DNA of 10,161 nt from Candidatus Aenigmatarchaeota archaeon (GTDB lineage Archaea; EX4484-52; GLR71), in the NCBI GenBank assembly GCA_023134675.1, contig JAGLUQ010000019.1:1-10161 (forward strand), read 5' to 3'. This document shows, one piece after another, positions 2,512 to 9,712 of the stretch. A program made the position numbers and the translations under genes. The notes under the pieces are model-generated. The model made no database searches. It was not told the DNA's origin and saw only the letters and a program-made list of their open reading frames with translations. How positions within the stretch are numbered: position 1 is the first letter of the stretch; each line of letters opens with the position of its first letter.

Positions 2512-2862
2512 ATGGCAGCTGATGGAATTTTTTTAAAATTGAGCGATGATGCTCTTGAAACATACAAGAATATTACCCTGTCATTGATTGCTAATTTTGA
2601 TGGTGCTGAATATACTCTTTTTCATCTTTATCGTGATATTGAATTTACAGCAACCCAAAAATATTATCCAGAACTTAAATATTGTAAATCACCTTTTGAT
2701 TTGGCTTTTGTTTCCGGTATTATTGATTCTTTTAAGGATAAGGGACTTGTTAATATTTTAGAGAATGGAAATAAGATAGATATATACAGTATAACTGATT
2801 CCGGCCTGAGGAAGTATGAGAAATTATCTCGTACATGTAAAATCGGTGTAAGATGTGTTTGA
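2512..2862 (+). CDS. Small winged-helix-like protein, function unknown
   Basis: I do not recognise the family of this 116-aa protein. Its second half reads like a winged helix-turn-helix: a possible recognition helix (SGIIDSFKDKGLVNI, about 68-82), a polar turn (ENGNK), then a beta strand and helix of the usual 'Y-x-I/L-T-x-x-G' wing type (IDIYSITDSGLRKYEKL, about 89-105). No signal peptide or membrane segment is visible. It starts 54 bases after mutS without a Shine-Dalgarno sequence; a TATA-like tttttaagg at 2472-2480 would give a short leader. Its base composition is AT-rich like the next two genes and unlike mutS. A small DNA-binding regulator of the downstream pair is a reasonable inference, since a palindrome covers their promoter, but it is not shown. 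Confidence 0.7.
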   Translation: MAADGIFLKLSDDALETYKNITLSLIANFDGAEYTLFHLYRDIEFTATQKYYPELKYCKSPFDLAFVSGIIDSFKDKGLVNILENGNKIDIYSITDSGLRKYEKLSRTCKIGVRCV

Positions 2863-2928
2863 CTTCCTGTGTATCTTTATCCTTGCTGTATAATCTTTCT
2901 TTGAAGTTGCCTTTTTGTCCATTGTTTT

Positions 2929-2955
2929 GTAGCAACATTTAAAATGCTTTGCTAC
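2929..2955 (+). promoter_or_regulatory. TATA-like promoter inside an inverted repeat, possible operator
   Basis: The arms gtagcaa (2929-2935) and ttgctac (2949-2955) are perfect inverted complements. The 13-base spacer contains the AT-rich TATA-like element tttaaaat (2938-2945), itself close to palindromic. The element lies about 48 bases before the ATG at 2989, so initiation some 26 bases downstream would leave a leader of about 22 bases. A dimeric repressor bound here would block TBP. The arms could instead form a weak hairpin behind the preceding gene; no T-run follows the right arm directly, which makes a terminator less likely. Confidence 0.4.
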
Positions 2956-2988
2956 CTATTTCTCTTGTTTTGATTTGGGGTCTTTCGG

Positions 2989-4566
2989 ATGGATACAGTG
3001 TATTTTGAAATTGATGATCTGATAAATGCGCTTGCCTATGATTTCATGACTACTGGAAGATATATTGATGATGCTTTGACACATATAACTGGATATATTG
3101 ATCCTGAAGAATACACAGATGATTTTGAAGTTTATATGTTCAATAATTTTCGGCATTTGTCAAAACTGCTTGATTCTTTTAATTATATTAATCTTGAAGA
3201 AGAAACAAGAAATTTTTATCTGGATTTAATTAGTCAGTTATGGGAATATCAAGATAATCCTGAAAACAATCAAGCTTTTAAGGATGTGATATATGCGTCT
3301 GTACGGGAAAATCCGCAGATTGCTGCTTTTGCGATATATAATGGTGATACAGAGGGTATAATCGAAAAAGAGATAATAAGCAGATTCATAGCTTTCAGTG
3401 AGGATACATCAGATTTCAGTTATACTGTATTTAACAGAGCGATAAATGATTTTATTAGTGATAATTCATGGAGAGATTACCGCAATTTTGACTGGCGTGA
3501 TTTTAATCTTCAGGAAAAGCTGGAGCAGATGAGAAGCTATGGTCTTTTAGAATATGAGGATATATTTTCTAAGAATGGAATCACTGTGACTTATTTGGGA
3601 AAGTCTGTATCTGGTCTGCTGGATAGTTTTTATTCTAATGGATATGCTTTTAAGCCATTGGAATATCTTGGAAGAATAGATAGTTTAATAATTAATCCTA
3701 TAGATACTGAAACCGTGGCAAAAACAGAAGATATACAACCATCTGTGGATGATGTTGATGTTGAACCTTTGCTTGAGCCTTCTGAAATGGATGTAATGTA
3801 TCCTGCCATTGAACAGTTGTTGATAGAAGGGTCTGAACCTCTTGGATTTATTCAACCTTCTGATTATTTAAGTAGTCTTTTAGTTTTCAGTGTTTTACAT
3901 AAGTATGAAGATACTGAACCTGCATTGGAACTGCCAGATGCTGCCAAGTTATTAATGTATTTTAAGCTTTCAGAGACTGAAGAATCGGAATCTCTGAAAC
4001 TTCTGCCGCCTTCGGCTGGTGTCAGTAATTTTTTAGCTGTCAGTGATTTGAGTGAGGATGAAGAGGTAAAATCTGAGGTGGGACTGTCAGATGTTGCCAA
4101 GATACTTATGCATTCTAAACTTTCTGCGACTCCTAAACCTTGGTTTACAAAATTTGAAGGTCGTGAGTTTCCTTATGGTATCCAGGTTAATGGCAATCTT
4201 GAGATTGCTCTTGATGAAGAGAGAAAAAATGTTGTTGAGATATTGAATCGCGACGGCAGGGTATCAAATGAATACTTATCTTTCTTGTGCACTTTTTTTG
4301 CTTCTGATTATAATGTTATTGCAGGGAAGGTTTGTCAGAATGGAAATGGTAAGGTTTTTTATGATGCTATGTCTTCTTTGCAGGATAAAGGATTAATATT
4401 GAAAGATATATCTGGATTTGTTCCCGGCCATAACTCAGATTATGCATTGAATTATGGGATTAATTCACTGATAGTTTCTAATCCTGAGTATACAGACAGT
4501 GAGAGAAAAATTATAAATGCTATATCTTCGCATGATTATGTTATGGCCAAGATAGAATATATGTGA
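2989..4566 (+). CDS. Large acidic multi-domain protein with winged-helix-like segments and an internal repeat
   Basis: I do not recognise the family of this 525-aa protein. Visible parts in order: an acidic, aromatic-rich N-terminal region (1-170), mostly helical in appearance; a winged-helix-like segment (about 174-214, ending in ITVTYLGKSVSGLLDSF); an Asp/Glu/Pro-rich linker with SVDDVD at 252-257; two tandem copies of a 50-residue unit (283-332 and 334-383) each ending in D-A/V-A-K-L/I-L-M-x-x-KLS; and a second helix-turn-helix-like region (about 415-498, with VFYDAMSSLQDKGLILKD). There is no signal peptide, membrane segment or catalytic motif that I can see. The next gene begins 16 bases after the stop and has a similar domains-plus-acidic-linker build, so the two probably share a transcript and a task. 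The start ATG has no Shine-Dalgarno sequence. G+C in a sampled line is 33%. A DNA-binding scaffold is an inference only. Confidence 0.85.
   Translation: MDTVYFEIDDLINALAYDFMTTGRYIDDALTHITGYIDPEEYTDDFEVYMFNNFRHLSKLLDSFNYINLEEETRNFYLDLISQLWEYQDNPENNQAFKDVIYASVRENPQIAAFAIYNGDTEGIIEKEIISRFIAFSEDTSDFSYTVFNRAINDFISDNSWRDYRNFDWRDFNLQEKLEQMRSYGLLEYEDIFSKNGITVTYLGKSVSGLLDSFYSNGYAFKPLEYLGRIDSLIINPIDTETVAKTEDIQPSVDDVDVEPLLEPSEMDVMYPAIEQLLIEGSEPLGFIQPSDYLSSLLVFSVLHKYEDTEPALELPDAAKLLMYFKLSETEESESLKLLPPSAGVSNFLAVSDLSEDEEVKSEVGLSDVAKILMHSKLSATPKPWFTKFEGREFPYGIQVNGNLEIALDEERKNVVEILNRDGRVSNEYLSFLCTFFASDYNVIAGKVCQNGNGKVFYDAMSSLQDKGLILKDISGFVPGHNSDYALNYGINSLIVSNPEYTDSERKIINAISSHDYVMAKIEYM
3835..4137 (+). repeat. 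Tandem 51-codon protein repeat, two units
   Basis: Residues 283-332 (EPLGFIQPSD...) and 334-383 (ESLKLLPPSA...) of the 525-aa protein align without gaps over 50 positions, with 18 identities by eye, giving a 51-codon period. The best conserved stretch is LPDAAKLLMYFKLS against LSDVAKILMHSKLS. The DNA of the units has diverged well beyond the protein signal, so this is an old duplication within the gene, not a recent slippage event. Confidence 0.6.
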
Positions 4567-4582
4567 TATTTGAGTGGGTGTT

Positions 4583-6448
4583 ATGGATAAGGTAGATATA
4601 TGCAAGGGAGTTGAACTTTGTTTTGATGCCAGTAATATTTATATTTTGAATGAAGGAAAAAGAAAAGATTTGACCAACAAAGGAGGCAAAGTATTAAACA
4701 GTCTTTATTATCTCTTTGGCCAATATCTTGAAGAACATGAAATCTCTTTTGATTTTAAAGATAATTTGGATATGATTGGGATAAGTAATATAAATGTCAT
4801 GAGTAAACAATTCATGAATCTGCATCTTCTTGAAAATAACCATGACGGCCGTGTCTTATCTGATTGCGGCAATAATCTTGTTAAAAAAATAATTAATTAT
4901 ATATCAGAAAATTCGGGTGTTTATGATTCAATAAAGAACCTACGTTATCTGGGCCTTTTTGATAAATGTCAGAATCTTATTGGTGATGGTGAGTGTGAGG
5001 ACTTAAATCTAGATACAAAGATATTTGATACATATCCTGAAGATACTATTGATCCTGTACCTGTTTCACCTGTTGCTGAAATGTTAACAGATGAATCTGT
5101 TGTGCCGGATTCTGTAGATGATGTTGACCCTTTACCTGTTGATCAGACAGGAGCTGAAGATGTTGTGATGCCTGATCAAGGTGAGACTGATGCTTCTGCA
5201 TATCCTTTGTCTCACGAGGAGATAAAATTAGCTATAGGAAGGGATATTCTGGTTTGGGATGGTGACAGGTTGGCTGTTACAGATAAGGGCAAGGAAAATG
5301 AGACTTTTATGTATATTTATGGCAATAGGATTGAGGCGGTGAATATGCAAGCAGTTTCTGATGTGCCTGAAGAAGATCTGTCTGGTACGGAGGAAGATCC
5401 TGCTGAGACTTATTTTAAGATTCTTGAGAAGTATGATATTGTTAAAAGGACAGATGGTTTTAATGGCTATAAAATCATGTCTGGTGATATAGATGTTCCG
5501 CTGACCGATACTAAATCTAATAAACATGGAGGTCTCTCAGCATTTGCAACACCTGAAATATATACTCTTGAAGTAATATATGAAGCGCATAAGAATAAAT
5601 TATATCTTGATGAGAACAGGCTTGATAAGATACTTCAATCTCTTCTTAAAAAAGCTGCAAAATATGGAAAGAATGTGTTAGGTAACCAATCACTTGTTCT
5701 TTTTGATGAAAATAAAAGTATACATCCTGGTGAATATACGGAAAGCCTGATCTCAATCGTTTCTGATTTTTTCCAGAACGGATATGAAGACATACAAAAA
5801 CTGGAAGGTATTGATTTCGCTCTAAGGCGTTTAAACTCTATTGAAGAACATCTGAATATGTTTTATGATTCGTGGCCGTATAAAGAATTTGTTGAGTTCA
5901 ATCTTTCTGATAGTGAGCCTGAAGTTGCTGCTCCTGTTTCTTCTGATGTTGCTGTTCCTCAAAAGGCTGTTAAGAAACCTGAGCCTAAAAAACCGGATTT
6001 TGGGAGATATTCCTGGAGAGAGAATCAGTCTGAGGCAGGGCAGAGTCAGGTAATTAAAAAAATACCACACAATAGAGAAATAGATGAGCAATTGGATAAT
6101 AGAGTGAAATTTAATGATGGAATAGTTTCTGATGCTTCATTAGGCACTCCTGTTGAAGTTGTTGATTTAAATGGTGTTATTTCAATCATATATGGCTCTG
6201 GAAATGGTAACGGCACATCTCCTCAAAGGAAAGTAATCAAGACCGGTGCAGGACTTACAGAATTAGGCAAGAGATATATTCCAGGAGAAGATATATCTTT
6301 GCGGGATACGGAATTAGTAACTGATTTGGAGAAAGGCCTGTCTGAATTGAATCTTTTTGACTATTCCGGAAAACTGAATGAATTTGGACTGCAATTAGTT
6401 GAAGCATTAGGTATTGAATCAAATGTAATCTCGCATTTGAAATCATGA
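4583..6448 (+). CDS. Large acidic multi-domain protein with several winged-helix-like segments
   Basis: I do not recognise the family of this 621-aa protein. I take ATG 4583 as the start; GTG 4574 in the same frame would add three residues with no support. Visible parts: an N-terminal mixed region (1-150); an acidic, Pro-rich linker with SVDDVDPLPVD at 177-187; a wing-like strand pair (LVWDGDRLAVTDKGKE, about 223-237); a second segment with EKYDIVKRTDGFNGYKI; a helical middle (about 320-450); a Pro/Lys linker (PQKAVKKPEPKKPD, 459-472); and a C-terminal pair of winged-helix-like pieces (GLTELGKRY at about 557-565, then LEKGLSELNLFDYSGKLNEFG). No membrane segment, signal peptide or catalytic motif is seen. 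It starts 16 bases after the previous stop, and an AT-rich gaatatatg at 4555-4563 could also give it its own leaderless promoter. The likely partner is the 525-aa protein. Multi-domain nucleic-acid binding is inferred from the repeated wing patterns and needs a structure prediction. Confidence 0.85.
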   Translation: MDKVDICKGVELCFDASNIYILNEGKRKDLTNKGGKVLNSLYYLFGQYLEEHEISFDFKDNLDMIGISNINVMSKQFMNLHLLENNHDGRVLSDCGNNLVKKIINYISENSGVYDSIKNLRYLGLFDKCQNLIGDGECEDLNLDTKIFDTYPEDTIDPVPVSPVAEMLTDESVVPDSVDDVDPLPVDQTGAEDVVMPDQGETDASAYPLSHEEIKLAIGRDILVWDGDRLAVTDKGKENETFMYIYGNRIEAVNMQAVSDVPEEDLSGTEEDPAETYFKILEKYDIVKRTDGFNGYKIMSGDIDVPLTDTKSNKHGGLSAFATPEIYTLEVIYEAHKNKLYLDENRLDKILQSLLKKAAKYGKNVLGNQSLVLFDENKSIHPGEYTESLISIVSDFFQNGYEDIQKLEGIDFALRRLNSIEEHLNMFYDSWPYKEFVEFNLSDSEPEVAAPVSSDVAVPQKAVKKPEPKKPDFGRYSWRENQSEAGQSQVIKKIPHNREIDEQLDNRVKFNDGIVSDASLGTPVEVVDLNGVISIIYGSGNGNGTSPQRKVIKTGAGLTELGKRYIPGEDISLRDTELVTDLEKGLSELNLFDYSGKLNEFGLQLVEALGIESNVISHLKS

Positions 6449-6517: not shown

Positions 6518-8317
6518 ATGGAAAAGAAGATAAAAAAGCTTGATGATACTTTGATAAGTAAGATTGCAGCAGGAGAGGTCATAGAGAGGCCGGCATCTGT
6601 TGTCAAAGAGCTTGTGGAGAATTCTATTGACGCTGATGCTATACAGATAACTGTAGATGTTTCTAAGGCAGGGAAAAAGCTGGTAGCTGTTACAGATAAC
6701 GGTTACGGTATGACATATGATGATGCTATGCTCTCTTTTGAGAGGCATGCGACAAGTAAGATACAGGATGTTGATGATCTTTTCTCTATACATACTTTGG
6801 GTTTCAGGGGTGAGGCTCTGGCCAGTATCTCATCTGTATCCAAGGTTGAGATGATTACAAATGCCGGCGGTTCTGAGGCAGTTCGGATAAATGTTGACGG
6901 CGGAAAGGCTGCTGATATATCTTCCTGCGGCGCTCCCCGAGGTACTGAGATTAAGGTGTCTGATCTTTTCTTCAACACGCCTGCACGGAAGAAATATATG
7001 AAGTCGGATGCTGTCGAGCTTGAGCATATTGTTGATATTGTCACAAGGTATGCTTTAATAAATCCTAAGATACATTTCAGGTTGCTTAATGATGGCCGTC
7101 CTGTACTTTCAACTCCGGGAACTGACGATATGCTTGCGAACATCCGGAACATTTACGGCAGGGAGACCGAGAAGAATGTTGTGTCTCTGAAGTATTCTTC
7201 TGAGGGTATAGAGGTTTCAGGATATATATCAAAGCCGGCTTTGACAAGGGGGGGCAGGGATCAGCAGTCTGTCTTTATCAACGGGAGATATATCCGGAGT
7301 AGAATTGTGACTGATGCTGTATACAATGCTTACAAGACGCTTCTTCCAAAGCACAGGCATCCGTTCTTTGTCCTTGCGATAAATATAGATCCCAAGACGA
7401 TCGATGTCAATATTCATCCGTCAAAGAGAGAGATCAAGGTGAGAAATGATATAGAGTCTGCGCTTTCAGATGCTGTGTTCTCTGCTGCTGACAGGGCGCT
7501 TAAGGAGAATGTGCTTATCCCTGAAGCTGTAATATCTGTCAGGGACAATATAGTTCCATCTTCAAAGCCGAAAAATGTCTATCAATCATCACCCGGGATG
7601 CAGGCGACATTGAGGCCTTCTTTGTCTTCTGTTTCTTCGGATACCTGTATTGAGGTTGTTAATGATGTTTCTGAAATATCTGATGATAATGTGGTCTTGG
7701 ATGAGGTGCTGCCTGAAGATGAAGCGATATCAAAACTTCCTGAGATGAGGATTGTCGGCCAGGTCAACAAGACATATATCATTGCTGAGACTTCTGACGG
7801 GATGATGATTATTGACCAGCATGCTGCTCATGAAAGGGTGCTTTATGAGAGATTTATGAAGATGCATTCTACAGGTGATATCAAGACGCAGGATCTTATC
7901 AATGTCCAGATAATTGAGCTTCCGCCTAAAGAGTCTATTCTTCTTTTGTCAAACCTTGAGGAATTTGCGAAGTACGGGTTTACTATAGAGACTTTCGGTA
8001 AAGATACATTTGTCGTCAGGACAATACCTGTTATTTTAGGCCGGCTGAAGTCTAAGGATCTTATAAAAGATTTAATTGAGGACTTTATCAATCTGGGCAG
8101 GTCTGATAAGATTTCTGACATGAGGGAGAAGATTATAATTACTATGGCCTGCAGGAGCGCTATCAAAGGCGGTGAGGAGCTTACGATGCCTGTGGTTAAG
8201 AAGCTGATTGATGATCTTTCTCGCGCTGATAATCCTTTCACCTGCCCGCATGGGAGGCCGACGATGATAAGTATGGGTGTCTCTGAGCTTGAGAAGAAGT
8301 TTAAGAGGGTTGTTTGA
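6518..8317 (+). CDS. mutL: DNA mismatch repair protein MutL, endonuclease type
   Basis: MutL couples MutS mismatch recognition to strand incision. I start it at ATG 6518 (599 aa) because MEKKIKKLDDTLISKIAAGEV aligns with normal MutL N-termini; TTG 6509 would add three residues. GHKL ATPase motifs: KELVEN with catalytic E31 and Mg-binding N35, DNGYGM at 60-65, LGFRGEAL at 94-101 and FNTPARKK from 152. The acidic, Ser-rich linker (about 345-410) leads to the C-terminal dimerisation domain, which has the full metal-nuclease set: DQHAAHERVLYE (433-444), ACRSAIKGG (544-552), CPHGRP (576-581) and FKR (595-597). This is the Bacillus/PMS2-type enzyme that nicks DNA itself, not the nuclease-lacking E. 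coli type. QDLINV at 458-463 sits where bacterial MutL has the clamp motif QxxLxP, with the Pro replaced. No clear Shine-Dalgarno sequence is visible. The gene lies 69 bases after the preceding gene. Its last 35 or so codons occur again at 9160. Confidence 0.98.
   Translation: MEKKIKKLDDTLISKIAAGEVIERPASVVKELVENSIDADAIQITVDVSKAGKKLVAVTDNGYGMTYDDAMLSFERHATSKIQDVDDLFSIHTLGFRGEALASISSVSKVEMITNAGGSEAVRINVDGGKAADISSCGAPRGTEIKVSDLFFNTPARKKYMKSDAVELEHIVDIVTRYALINPKIHFRLLNDGRPVLSTPGTDDMLANIRNIYGRETEKNVVSLKYSSEGIEVSGYISKPALTRGGRDQQSVFINGRYIRSRIVTDAVYNAYKTLLPKHRHPFFVLAINIDPKTIDVNIHPSKREIKVRNDIESALSDAVFSAADRALKENVLIPEAVISVRDNIVPSSKPKNVYQSSPGMQATLRPSLSSVSSDTCIEVVNDVSEISDDNVVLDEVLPEDEAISKLPEMRIVGQVNKTYIIAETSDGMMIIDQHAAHERVLYERFMKMHSTGDIKTQDLINVQIIELPPKESILLLSNLEEFAKYGFTIETFGKDTFVVRTIPVILGRLKSKDLIKDLIEDFINLGRSDKISDMREKIIITMACRSAIKGGEELTMPVVKKLIDDLSRADNPFTCPHGRPTMISMGVSELEKKFKRVV
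8204..8308 (+). repeat. mutL 3'-end direct repeat, copy 1 (inside intact mutL)
   Basis: These are codons 563-597 of mutL. They align without gaps to 9160-9264, with 93 of 105 bases identical by eye. Ten of the 12 differences are silent; the two replacements are Asp to Asn and Met to Ile. The longest shared run is the 19 bases atctttctcgcgctgataa, beginning at 8214. Similarity stops at the stop codon: the sequences after the two copies are unrelated. Confidence 0.95.
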
Positions 8318-8328
8318 CGGGGATTAGA

Positions 8329-8337
8329 ATATATTAA
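8329..8337 (+). promoter_or_regulatory. TATA-like promoter element for the TraB-like gene
   Basis: The AT-rich stretch atatattaa, preceded by the purine-rich ggattaga that could serve as a TFB recognition element, ends about 34 bases before ATG 8372. With archaeal spacing of 26-27 bases to the start point it would give a leader of about 12 bases. It lies entirely in the 54 bases after the mutL stop, so this gene appears to bring its own promoter. Confidence 0.4.
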
Positions 8338-8371
8338 TAAAGTTTTGTAACCTCTGAGTAATTGTATATTT

Positions 8372-9115
8372 ATGAAAATGGTAGGATCTAATCATCTTGA
8401 AATTAGAGGCAGTCTTTTGCTGGAAAGTCTTCTAAATAAACACGAACCAGAAAGTATAACAATAGAATTTCCCAGTAACTACTCAATAAATGAGATAGAA
8501 GAATTAATTTTATCTTCACATAAAGTTGATTATTTACAACTATTAGAGATGCCTGATAATTTGAAAAAACTTCTTGTTGAGTTCCATTTGAATAGAGGAT
8601 ATGATGCATTGGTACCAATAAGATATGCTCAAAGTAGAGGTATGGATGTTTATCCTGTTGACTATCCTGATGTTGCAAAAATACTTATGTCTCAAAAAAA
8701 CAAAGAGATAACTCAGGAAAAATTTAATGCTAAACTAAAAGATATGCCTCTGCAAATATGGCAAATGACCTATGATGAGTTTAGGGAACAGTTTATTCGT
8801 GAAACTGACAATGTATATTTCAACCGTGAATTGTTTGATGTCCAAGTATACTCTGCGCTTATTGTTCTTCTATTTTTTGACAAACAAATACAAAATATTC
8901 AAAAAATATTTGAACCTGAATTTGCAGAAAAAAGAGAGGAGTATATGGCACAAAAGATTTTAGATATAAATCCGGATATGCATATCGGTGGAGCTGCGCA
9001 CATTTTCGAGTCTCACTCACAAGATTTTCCTGTCAAACAGTTGTATAGACGGTTAGAGGAAAAAAACATTCTTCTTGAAAAAATACGGTTATGTGAAGCT
9101 GTAAAATACTGCTAG
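8372..9115 (+). CDS. TraB/PrgY-like (TIKI/GumN/EreA-ChaN superfamily) protein
   Basis: This 247-aa protein shows the two signature histidine motifs of the TraB/PrgY-type superfamily: MVGSNHLE near the start (G5, H8) and GGAAHIFE near the end (G206, H210). After the first motif comes a helix and a strand ending in Glu (ESITIEF, E32), as in the 'VxVEL' element of the family. The later ARxxG-like YAQSRGMDVYPVD (84-97) matches the 'A..G..V..VD' strand. The usual Asp/Arg after the Glu is absent. Family members include TIKI metalloproteases and pheromone-shutdown proteins; the reaction here is unknown. No signal peptide or membrane helix is seen, so it is probably cytosolic, whereas many archaeal TraB proteins have C-terminal membrane helices. 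ATG 8372 is used; ATG 8378 is an alternative that would shorten it by two residues. Base composition is near 35% G+C in a sampled line, well below mutL. It stands between two copies of the mutL 3' end and is likely acquired. Confidence 0.7.
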   Translation: MKMVGSNHLEIRGSLLLESLLNKHEPESITIEFPSNYSINEIEELILSSHKVDYLQLLEMPDNLKKLLVEFHLNRGYDALVPIRYAQSRGMDVYPVDYPDVAKILMSQKNKEITQEKFNAKLKDMPLQIWQMTYDEFREQFIRETDNVYFNRELFDVQVYSALIVLLFFDKQIQNIQKIFEPEFAEKREEYMAQKILDINPDMHIGGAAHIFESHSQDFPVKQLYRRLEEKNILLEKIRLCEAVKYC

Positions 9116-9138
9116 AACTTATTATCTCTTTTTAGTTT

Positions 9139-9273
9139 ATGATGTCTGTAATAATGAGCCTGATTGATAATCTTTCTCGCGCTGATAACCCTTTTACCTG
9201 CCCGCACGGAAGGCCTACTATTATAAGCATGGGCGTCTCTGAGCTTGAAAAGAAGTTTAAGCGGGCTCAGTAG
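9139..9273 (+). pseudogene. Detached mutL 3' end, 44-codon open frame
   Basis: The frame from ATG 9139 (a second ATG follows at 9142) to TAG 9271-9273 encodes 44 residues: [12 protein letters not shown], then [20 protein letters not shown], then [12 protein letters not shown]. It matches mutL from M557 to the end, differing at the last two residues (AQ for VV). CPHGRP and FKR are intact; the ATPase, DQHAxxE and ACR motifs are absent. An in-frame TAG at 9133 closes the frame upstream, and homology to mutL fades just before the ATG codons. Most likely this is a displaced gene end left by an insertion or recombination at mutL. The frame has no damage and starts with ATG, so translation into a small MutL tail peptide cannot be excluded. 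Confidence 0.85.
9160..9264 (+). repeat. mutL 3'-end direct repeat, copy 2
   Basis: This is the partner of 8204-8308, 956 bases downstream in the same orientation, with 12 differences in 105 bases. Beyond it, at the last two codons, stop and downstream DNA, the copies no longer match. The mostly silent differences mean the copies separated long ago under protein-level constraint, so this copy was not made by a recent local duplication. Confidence 0.95.
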
Positions 9274-9370: not shown

Positions 9371-9712
9371 ATGATTTACCATCTTTCATGGAACGATAAT
9401 GCTAAGATACATCTTGGAGATAATGTAAGGACTGGTACTGAGAGCTATGATTCTTTTGAAACATTGCTAAAAAATATGCCGAGTGCTTGTGGCGGATTAG
9501 AGATGGGATTGTCTGGTAACGGGATATTAACACCATTGATTTTGGATACTGAGGTTTATTCTGATAAGGATATAGAATTTTGGATTAGTGATTGTGGGCT
9601 TAAGGAACTTCCGCTTTTTGCCAAAGATATGGATTTTTTATCGTATCAAGACATAAGGGCTGGAGGATATCGTTCTGTTGAAGTTGCGAAAGTCAAGATA
9701 GAATGCAATTAA
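9371..9712 (+). CDS. Hypothetical protein, 113 aa
   Basis: I do not recognise this protein. It is short, acidic and probably soluble, with alternating short strands and loops: IYHLSWNDNAKIHLGD at the N-terminus, a Gly-rich centre (ACGGLEMGLSGNGILTPLIL, about 39-58), then DIEFWISDCGLKELPLF and a closing strand EVAKVKIE. Four cysteines or fewer are present and they do not form a clear metal site. There is no signal peptide, membrane helix or helix-turn-helix. It follows the detached mutL end after 97 bases and has its own promoter-like element. G+C is low, like other accessory genes here. If the detached mutL end is the native one, this gene may be the original neighbour of mutL. Confidence 0.75.
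   Translation: MIYHLSWNDNAKIHLGDNVRTGTESYDSFETLLKNMPSACGGLEMGLSGNGILTPLILDTEVYSDKDIEFWISDCGLKELPLFAKDMDFLSYQDIRAGGYRSVEVAKVKIECN

Follow-up and report, generated by a model that had tools for sequence, protein, structure and literature searches.

Gene Order of the mutL Locus

The window (the whole 10,161-nt stretch of DNA that was analyzed) corresponds to contig C101 in an archaeal draft genome of 1.12 Mb, a metagenome-type assembly of 218 contigs that is 84.78% complete. Its gene order is mutS (truncated by the start of the contig), three genes of 116, 525, and 624 aa, mutL, a 247-aa gene, a detached second mutL end, and a 113-aa gene. The mutL gene is complete and lies on the plus strand at 6527–8317 (open frame from 6509); it matches the Pfam families MutL_C, DNA_mis_repair, and HATPase, and no second full copy was detected in the genome. 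GLR71 is named as a family of phylum EX4484-52 in one passage of the cited source, and a second passage lists it in a sentence on another phylum (PMC12590107); we infer that the window belongs to family GLR71. The comparison set comprises 34 genomes, the same number at the order and phylum levels.

The three genes between mutS and mutL (2512–6448) match no family above the cut-off. Their proteins are 59–77% identical to those of the closest relative in the comparison set, G001, the corresponding values being 97% for mutS and 91–92% for mutL. In G002, mutS adjoins mutL directly, and the mutS–mutL interval is therefore a second variable slot. The 525-aa gene contains an internal tandem duplication (153 nt, 69%, 3826–4131), and its counterpart in G001 has a 77-nt repeat at 91% (L029 4228–4412). 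In G018, a stretch of approximately 155 nt lies just upstream of mutL and again, 77% identical, upstream of mutS (L044 1436–1589 and 7116–7273), and looks like a small repeat family.

The Repeated mutL 3′ End

The 3′ end of mutL occurs twice in the same direction, at 8178–8309 and 9134–9265. The two copies of 132 nt (approximately 45 codons) are 84% identical, and their starts are 956 nt apart, a figure that denotes spacing and not the length of a gap. The first copy is attached and provides the last approximately 46 codons of mutL (8178–8317, plus strand), including the CPHGRP motif. The second copy is detached (9134–9273, plus strand) and is the second of the two MutL matches in the genome; a stop (TAG at 9133–9135) severs it from mutL and leaves an ATG frame of 44 aa at 9139–9273. 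A first-pass annotation of this DNA had described the last 35 or so codons of mutL as occurring twice in one orientation, and the repeat proves to be somewhat longer than that. Identity between the copies is 6/25 to the left of 8178, 17/26 at 8178–8203, 93/105 at 8204–8308, and 3/9 beyond, and the left edge at 8178 is sharp in this profile. The 17/26 part represents true homology, given that the best score at 1652 other downstream positions is 14/26. The longest exact run common to both ends is 19 nt.

The 35-codon core carries 12 changed codons, 10 silent and 2 non-silent; nine of the silent changes are at the third position and one is at the first (AGG to CGG). A recount thus reproduces the match of 93 in 105 and the 10 silent differences claimed previously. 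Under neutrality, 22 to 27% of changes are expected to be silent, and the probability of at least 10 silent changes in 12 is 1e-5 to 7e-5. By contrast, seven of the first nine codons of the downstream copy are changed in sense, including GAG to TAG in frame. This combination of a largely silent core and a mostly altered beginning indicates, as judged from the codon changes, that most of the divergence between the two ends arose within working mutL genes and that the severing is younger. Two earlier readings are upheld: the copies diverged mostly under coding constraint, and they do not stem from a recent duplication. An inverted match between 3348–3380 and 9118–9150 was judged to be of low complexity.

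Comparison with the closest relative bears on whether a mutL end was replaced. In the 3′ part of mutL, the window and G001 agree at 410/450 positions before the repeated end and at 114/138 inside it (p = 0.0075). Among the 15 pairs of six genomes, a drop with p < 0.05 at the repeated end is seen only for the window and G001, which are also closer to each other than any other pair. Between these two, similarity is equally low in two blocks of 60 nt within the 5′ part of mutL (44/60 and 47/60). The comparison is suggestive of a replaced mutL end, either in the window or in G001. Core identities are 93/105 between the attached and detached ends, 92/105 between the attached end and G001, and 85/105 between the detached end and G001. 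In the core, the attached end lies close to the ancestor, the detached end has the longer branch, and so neither copy is plainly native. Three codons (CGC at codon 15, GGY at codon 33, and GTR at codon 5) are common to both window ends and are not found in five other genus members, one of which lacks the first codons. These codons join the attached and detached ends, whereas the tree of mutL ends, which holds too little signal, places the detached end with G001 in its best version (support 44). With these two lines in disagreement, the earlier statement that the native copy cannot be told from the window stands.

The codons in common would suit a mutL end that was duplicated in tandem long ago in this lineage, with the enclosed gene inserted between the copies afterwards. 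A free duplicate would, however, have gathered non-silent changes, and the core did not; furthermore, two events would be needed, and the ftsY–mutL joint of G029 described below would be left unexplained. Such a duplication is considered quite improbable.

The Enclosed Gene and Its Downstream Neighbor

The sole gene-sized frame between the two mutL ends encodes a protein of 247 aa (8372–9115, plus strand), referred to here as the cargo gene. Its GC content is 32% against 43% in mutL, in agreement with its earlier description as AT-rich. The protein matches no Pfam family at E ≤ 5 and no NCBIfam family at E ≤ 1. It had been labeled TraB-like, and only two GxxH-like motifs, GSNH and GAAH, of a kind linked to TraB, can be recognized by eye; the label is not supported by the profile searches, in which PF01963 (TraB/PrgY/GumN family) also had no match at E ≤ 10 in the whole window genome. 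The cargo gene is found in 1 of the 34 genomes, that of the window itself. No relative was found in phages or plasmids, and five pattern matches in viral contigs yielded none that was confirmed. No integrase or recombinase is recognized in the interval by Pfam and NCBIfam profile searches of its one gene-sized frame, in agreement with the first-pass annotation, which saw no integrase there. The 113-aa gene that follows the detached end (9371–9712, plus strand) belongs to no Pfam or NCBIfam family and is likewise confined to the window genome among the 34. The empty site that had been proposed, with mutL followed directly by this gene, was not found in that set.

The Region Downstream of mutL in Related Genomes

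In the genus, mutL is followed by a variable interval and then by a conserved BacA-family gene, uppP (PF02673; E 2.9e-50 for G001). Both ends of this slot are visible in five members, with four kinds of content: those of G001, G003, and G006 each differ, and G002 and G005 are alike. The interval holds frames of 86, 403, and 93 aa in G001, a 170-aa frame and an opposite-strand 286-aa frame in G003, two opposite-strand frames in G006, a GH15-family gene in G002, and a GH15-family gene with a mutL piece in G005. The interval is occupied in all five members in which uppP is reached. This pattern suggests, as read from gene content, that the region downstream of mutL is a gene-turnover slot, and the scars in two relatives described below suggest that genes have been swapped there repeatedly. 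In the window, no uppP was found in the draft genome and the contig ends before any such gene, and the slot is therefore without a visible far edge. In a minus-strand frame of G002, near-perfect tandem repeats are present with a spacing of 60 nt (L030 3046–3288).

A profile search of slot proteins from the relatives, in which the slot frames of G007 and G008 were covered at most in part, recognized no integrase or transposase family. Weak phage-type matches below the cut-off were obtained for G003 (Zot, E 0.003), G001 (Terminase_3C, E 0.16), and G026 (tail collar, E 0.0009), and a mobile origin of some slot cargo is possible in view of these matches. The frame concerned in G026 lies opposite the downstream side of mutL (L040 1216–2058) and also has a weak Gp10_C match below the cut-off.

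Second mutL Pieces in Related Genomes

MutL matches occur in 18 of the 61 genomes searched, and mutL 3′ ends occur at 14 places in 12 of the 34 phylum genomes. A second, partial mutL piece is present in 3 of these 12, namely the window genome, G005, and G029, or in 2 of 11 when the window, which was chosen for its second mutL end, is left out. The pieces in G005 and G029 sit near the usual downstream neighbor of mutL. Among the matches listed, none of 79 other mutL-end loci (75 with at least 2 kb downstream) has a second piece; these control loci are bacterial by title, except for one labeled Micrarchaeota. Four weak second matches in three control loci (L064, L081, and L089) were rejected: the one checked in each locus was AT-rich (0.76, 0.76, and 0.88), with a best tblastn E of 0.079, and no mutL piece was present. 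A short mutL end in G003 that resembled an orphan was also set aside; it sits at a contig end and is thus probably a cut mutL. On the Micrarchaeota-titled contig (L053 8001–8108), a MutL end is 69% identical to the 44-aa frame and ranks among bacterial ones, possibly owing to transfer or a binning error.

The piece in G005 (105 nt, 80%) is an internal part of mutL that ends at GGCGGTGAG, approximately 140 nt before uppP. It has seven silent and seven non-silent codon changes, and constraint is less clear in this case. The position in mutL at which it stops and the position at which the window copy begins agree within 2 nt. On these edges rests the proposal that the ACR-to-CPHGRP stretch contains a site (GGTGAG|GAGCTT) that is preferred for breakage or joining and where the phylum repeatedly captures foreign DNA; G005 would have kept the left half, and the window the right half, of a mutL copy broken there. 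The proposal is highly unlikely to hold; if true, each gain of a gene would go together with a renewed mismatch-repair nuclease end, perhaps via an unseen nuclease targeting this stretch.

The piece in G029 (81 nt, 80%) is a mutL end with the motif CPHRRP, and lies near an SRP54-type GTPase gene (Pfam), presumably ftsY. On contig C70, positions 692–742 match the resident ftsY end at 48/51 and mutL at 10/51, and positions 757–823 match the genome’s own mutL at 54/67 and ftsY at 20/67. An extra ftsY end thus meets an extra mutL end over 7 nt common to both, CCTGCCC, and the joint is an illegitimate (microhomology) one, unlike the product of site-specific integration. Compared with the genome’s own mutL, the extra end has 10 silent and 4 non-silent codon changes, a coding-type divergence. 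The mutL of G029 has 301 nt of contig C10 after it before the contig stops, and this gene is presumably linked to the piece on C70.

These pieces bear on the possibility that the 44-aa frame of the window is a small gene in use, encoding a stand-alone MutL C-terminal peptide under selection. The frame has an intact ATG start, retains CPHGRP, and has diverged mainly by silent changes, and the G029 piece likewise stands in an open frame (41 aa) in which 10 of 14 codon changes are silent. The silent bias is explained equally well if the sequence was formerly part of a functional mutL, and most of the C-terminal domain is missing from the frame, among it the metal-site motifs DQHA and ACR. Furthermore, the G029 frame begins in antisense ftsY and has CPHRRP, and the G005 piece comes from another region of mutL. 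No ribosome-binding site is obvious by eye, and the RNA fold at the detached end is ordinary (z 0.46), with no sign of a structured RNA. A gene in use is very improbable.

Comparable scars in two other genomes also argue against an assembly or library chimera of two strains. The type, fragmentation, and incompleteness of the assembly would permit such an error, and the mutL and scar of G029 are on separate contigs. Nevertheless, the exact runs shared by the window copies, at 19 nt or less, are presumably short for an assembler to cross, and a chimera through a repeat would leave one hybrid end instead of two diverged ends. A chimera is regarded as quite unlikely.

Origin of the Arrangement

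The layout of one attached and one displaced end with cargo between them, together with the sharp left edge, is also what site-specific integration would produce: an element bringing its own mutL 3′ end would have inserted itself, rebuilt the gene, and pushed the old end aside, like integrases that target tRNA genes. The coincidence of the G005 and window edges and the phage-type matches in G003, G001, and G026 are consistent with such an element. Against it, neither the interval nor the searched slot proteins of relatives show a recognizable integrase or recombinase, no identical run exceeds 19 nt and the homology is spread over the full 132 nt, and the edge in G029 lies approximately 60 nt away from that of the window and G005, at a microhomology joint. 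In addition, viral contigs gave 10 pattern matches to a mutL end, of which none was confirmed. Site-specific integration is disfavored and rather unlikely. The insertion pattern put forward in the first-pass annotation is thus retained in part: a spare mutL end left by an insertion fits the data, but an element aimed specifically at the mutL 3′ end is not supported. Homologous recombination with mutL and its neighbor from a related strain, which had been given equal weight, is now the better supported of the two.

The explanation that we prefer, and hold to be moderately probable, is a one-sided capture by homology. DNA of a related strain, carrying a mutL end and the cargo gene, would have entered the gene-turnover slot by one homologous crossover, located within the mutL end or farther upstream, and its far end would have been sealed by an illegitimate (microhomology) joint inside the resident mutL 3′ region. 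The gene would have remained intact, as an equivalent end came with the incoming DNA, and the other end, severed and approximately 132 nt long, would have been left as a scar. The same two-sided event presumably lies behind the window arrangement, and the assignment of one copy to an outside source is likewise tentative.

Capture by homology explains the whole mutL, the diverged spare end, the cargo with no recognized integrase, and the G029 joint. The support comprises the coding-type divergence, the sharp left edge, the variable slot in relatives, and two parallel scars, one with a readable microhomology joint. Neither a donor nor an empty site for the window is present among the 34 genomes, and the right-hand joint of the window is not readable for this reason. 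Against the explanation, the drop between the window and G001 is one of 15 comparisons and is accompanied by low 5′ blocks, and the end of G001 may itself be the replaced one; moreover, the scar and mutL of G029 are on two contigs, and the G005 scar is internal with evenly divided codon changes.

Relation to Known Systems and Significance

Integration into gene 3′ ends, as in tRNA genes and by casposons, leaves a restored gene end and a displaced old end, and the layout in the window is alike. The window differs in having no recognized integrase and no identical core longer than 19 nt, and the edges do not appear to be constant among the scars, that of G029 lying apart although those of G005 and the window coincide within 2 nt. 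The SpyCI islands of Streptococcus pyogenes are also foreign DNA at mutL, and are described in the passages cited as entering the mutL 5′ end site-specifically and switching mutL (PMC3430984; PMC4689407), whereas the window is affected at the 3′ end, with no integrase recognized and mutL whole.

The capture proposed here resembles homology-facilitated illegitimate recombination (HFIR), in which one end is homologous and the other illegitimate, with a microhomology of 3 to 10 bp in most cases; the cited passages report it in S. pneumoniae, A. baylyi, P. stutzeri, and E. coli (PMC3240628). The 7-nt CCTGCCC is within this range, and is seen in G029 and not in the window. In general, HFIR removes a similar length of resident DNA, whereas the window keeps a gene end as a scar, and the reports cited are bacterial and experimental, whereas the present case is deduced from archaeal draft genomes. 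Recombination-driven gene-turnover hotspots similarly feature a variable interval between core genes with no recognizable mobile element; the present locus differs in that part of the flanking gene is present a second time as a mark of the event and in that it belongs to an archaeon with a small genome.

The event in the window is of a known kind; it offers a readable example and introduces no new principle. Gene-end scars of this type record the entry of accessory genes into genomes with no recognizable mobile elements. That three such scars occur at a single repair gene, in an archaeal phylum that has been little studied, suggests that one-sided capture by homology takes place in natural archaeal populations and drives gene turnover beside mutL.
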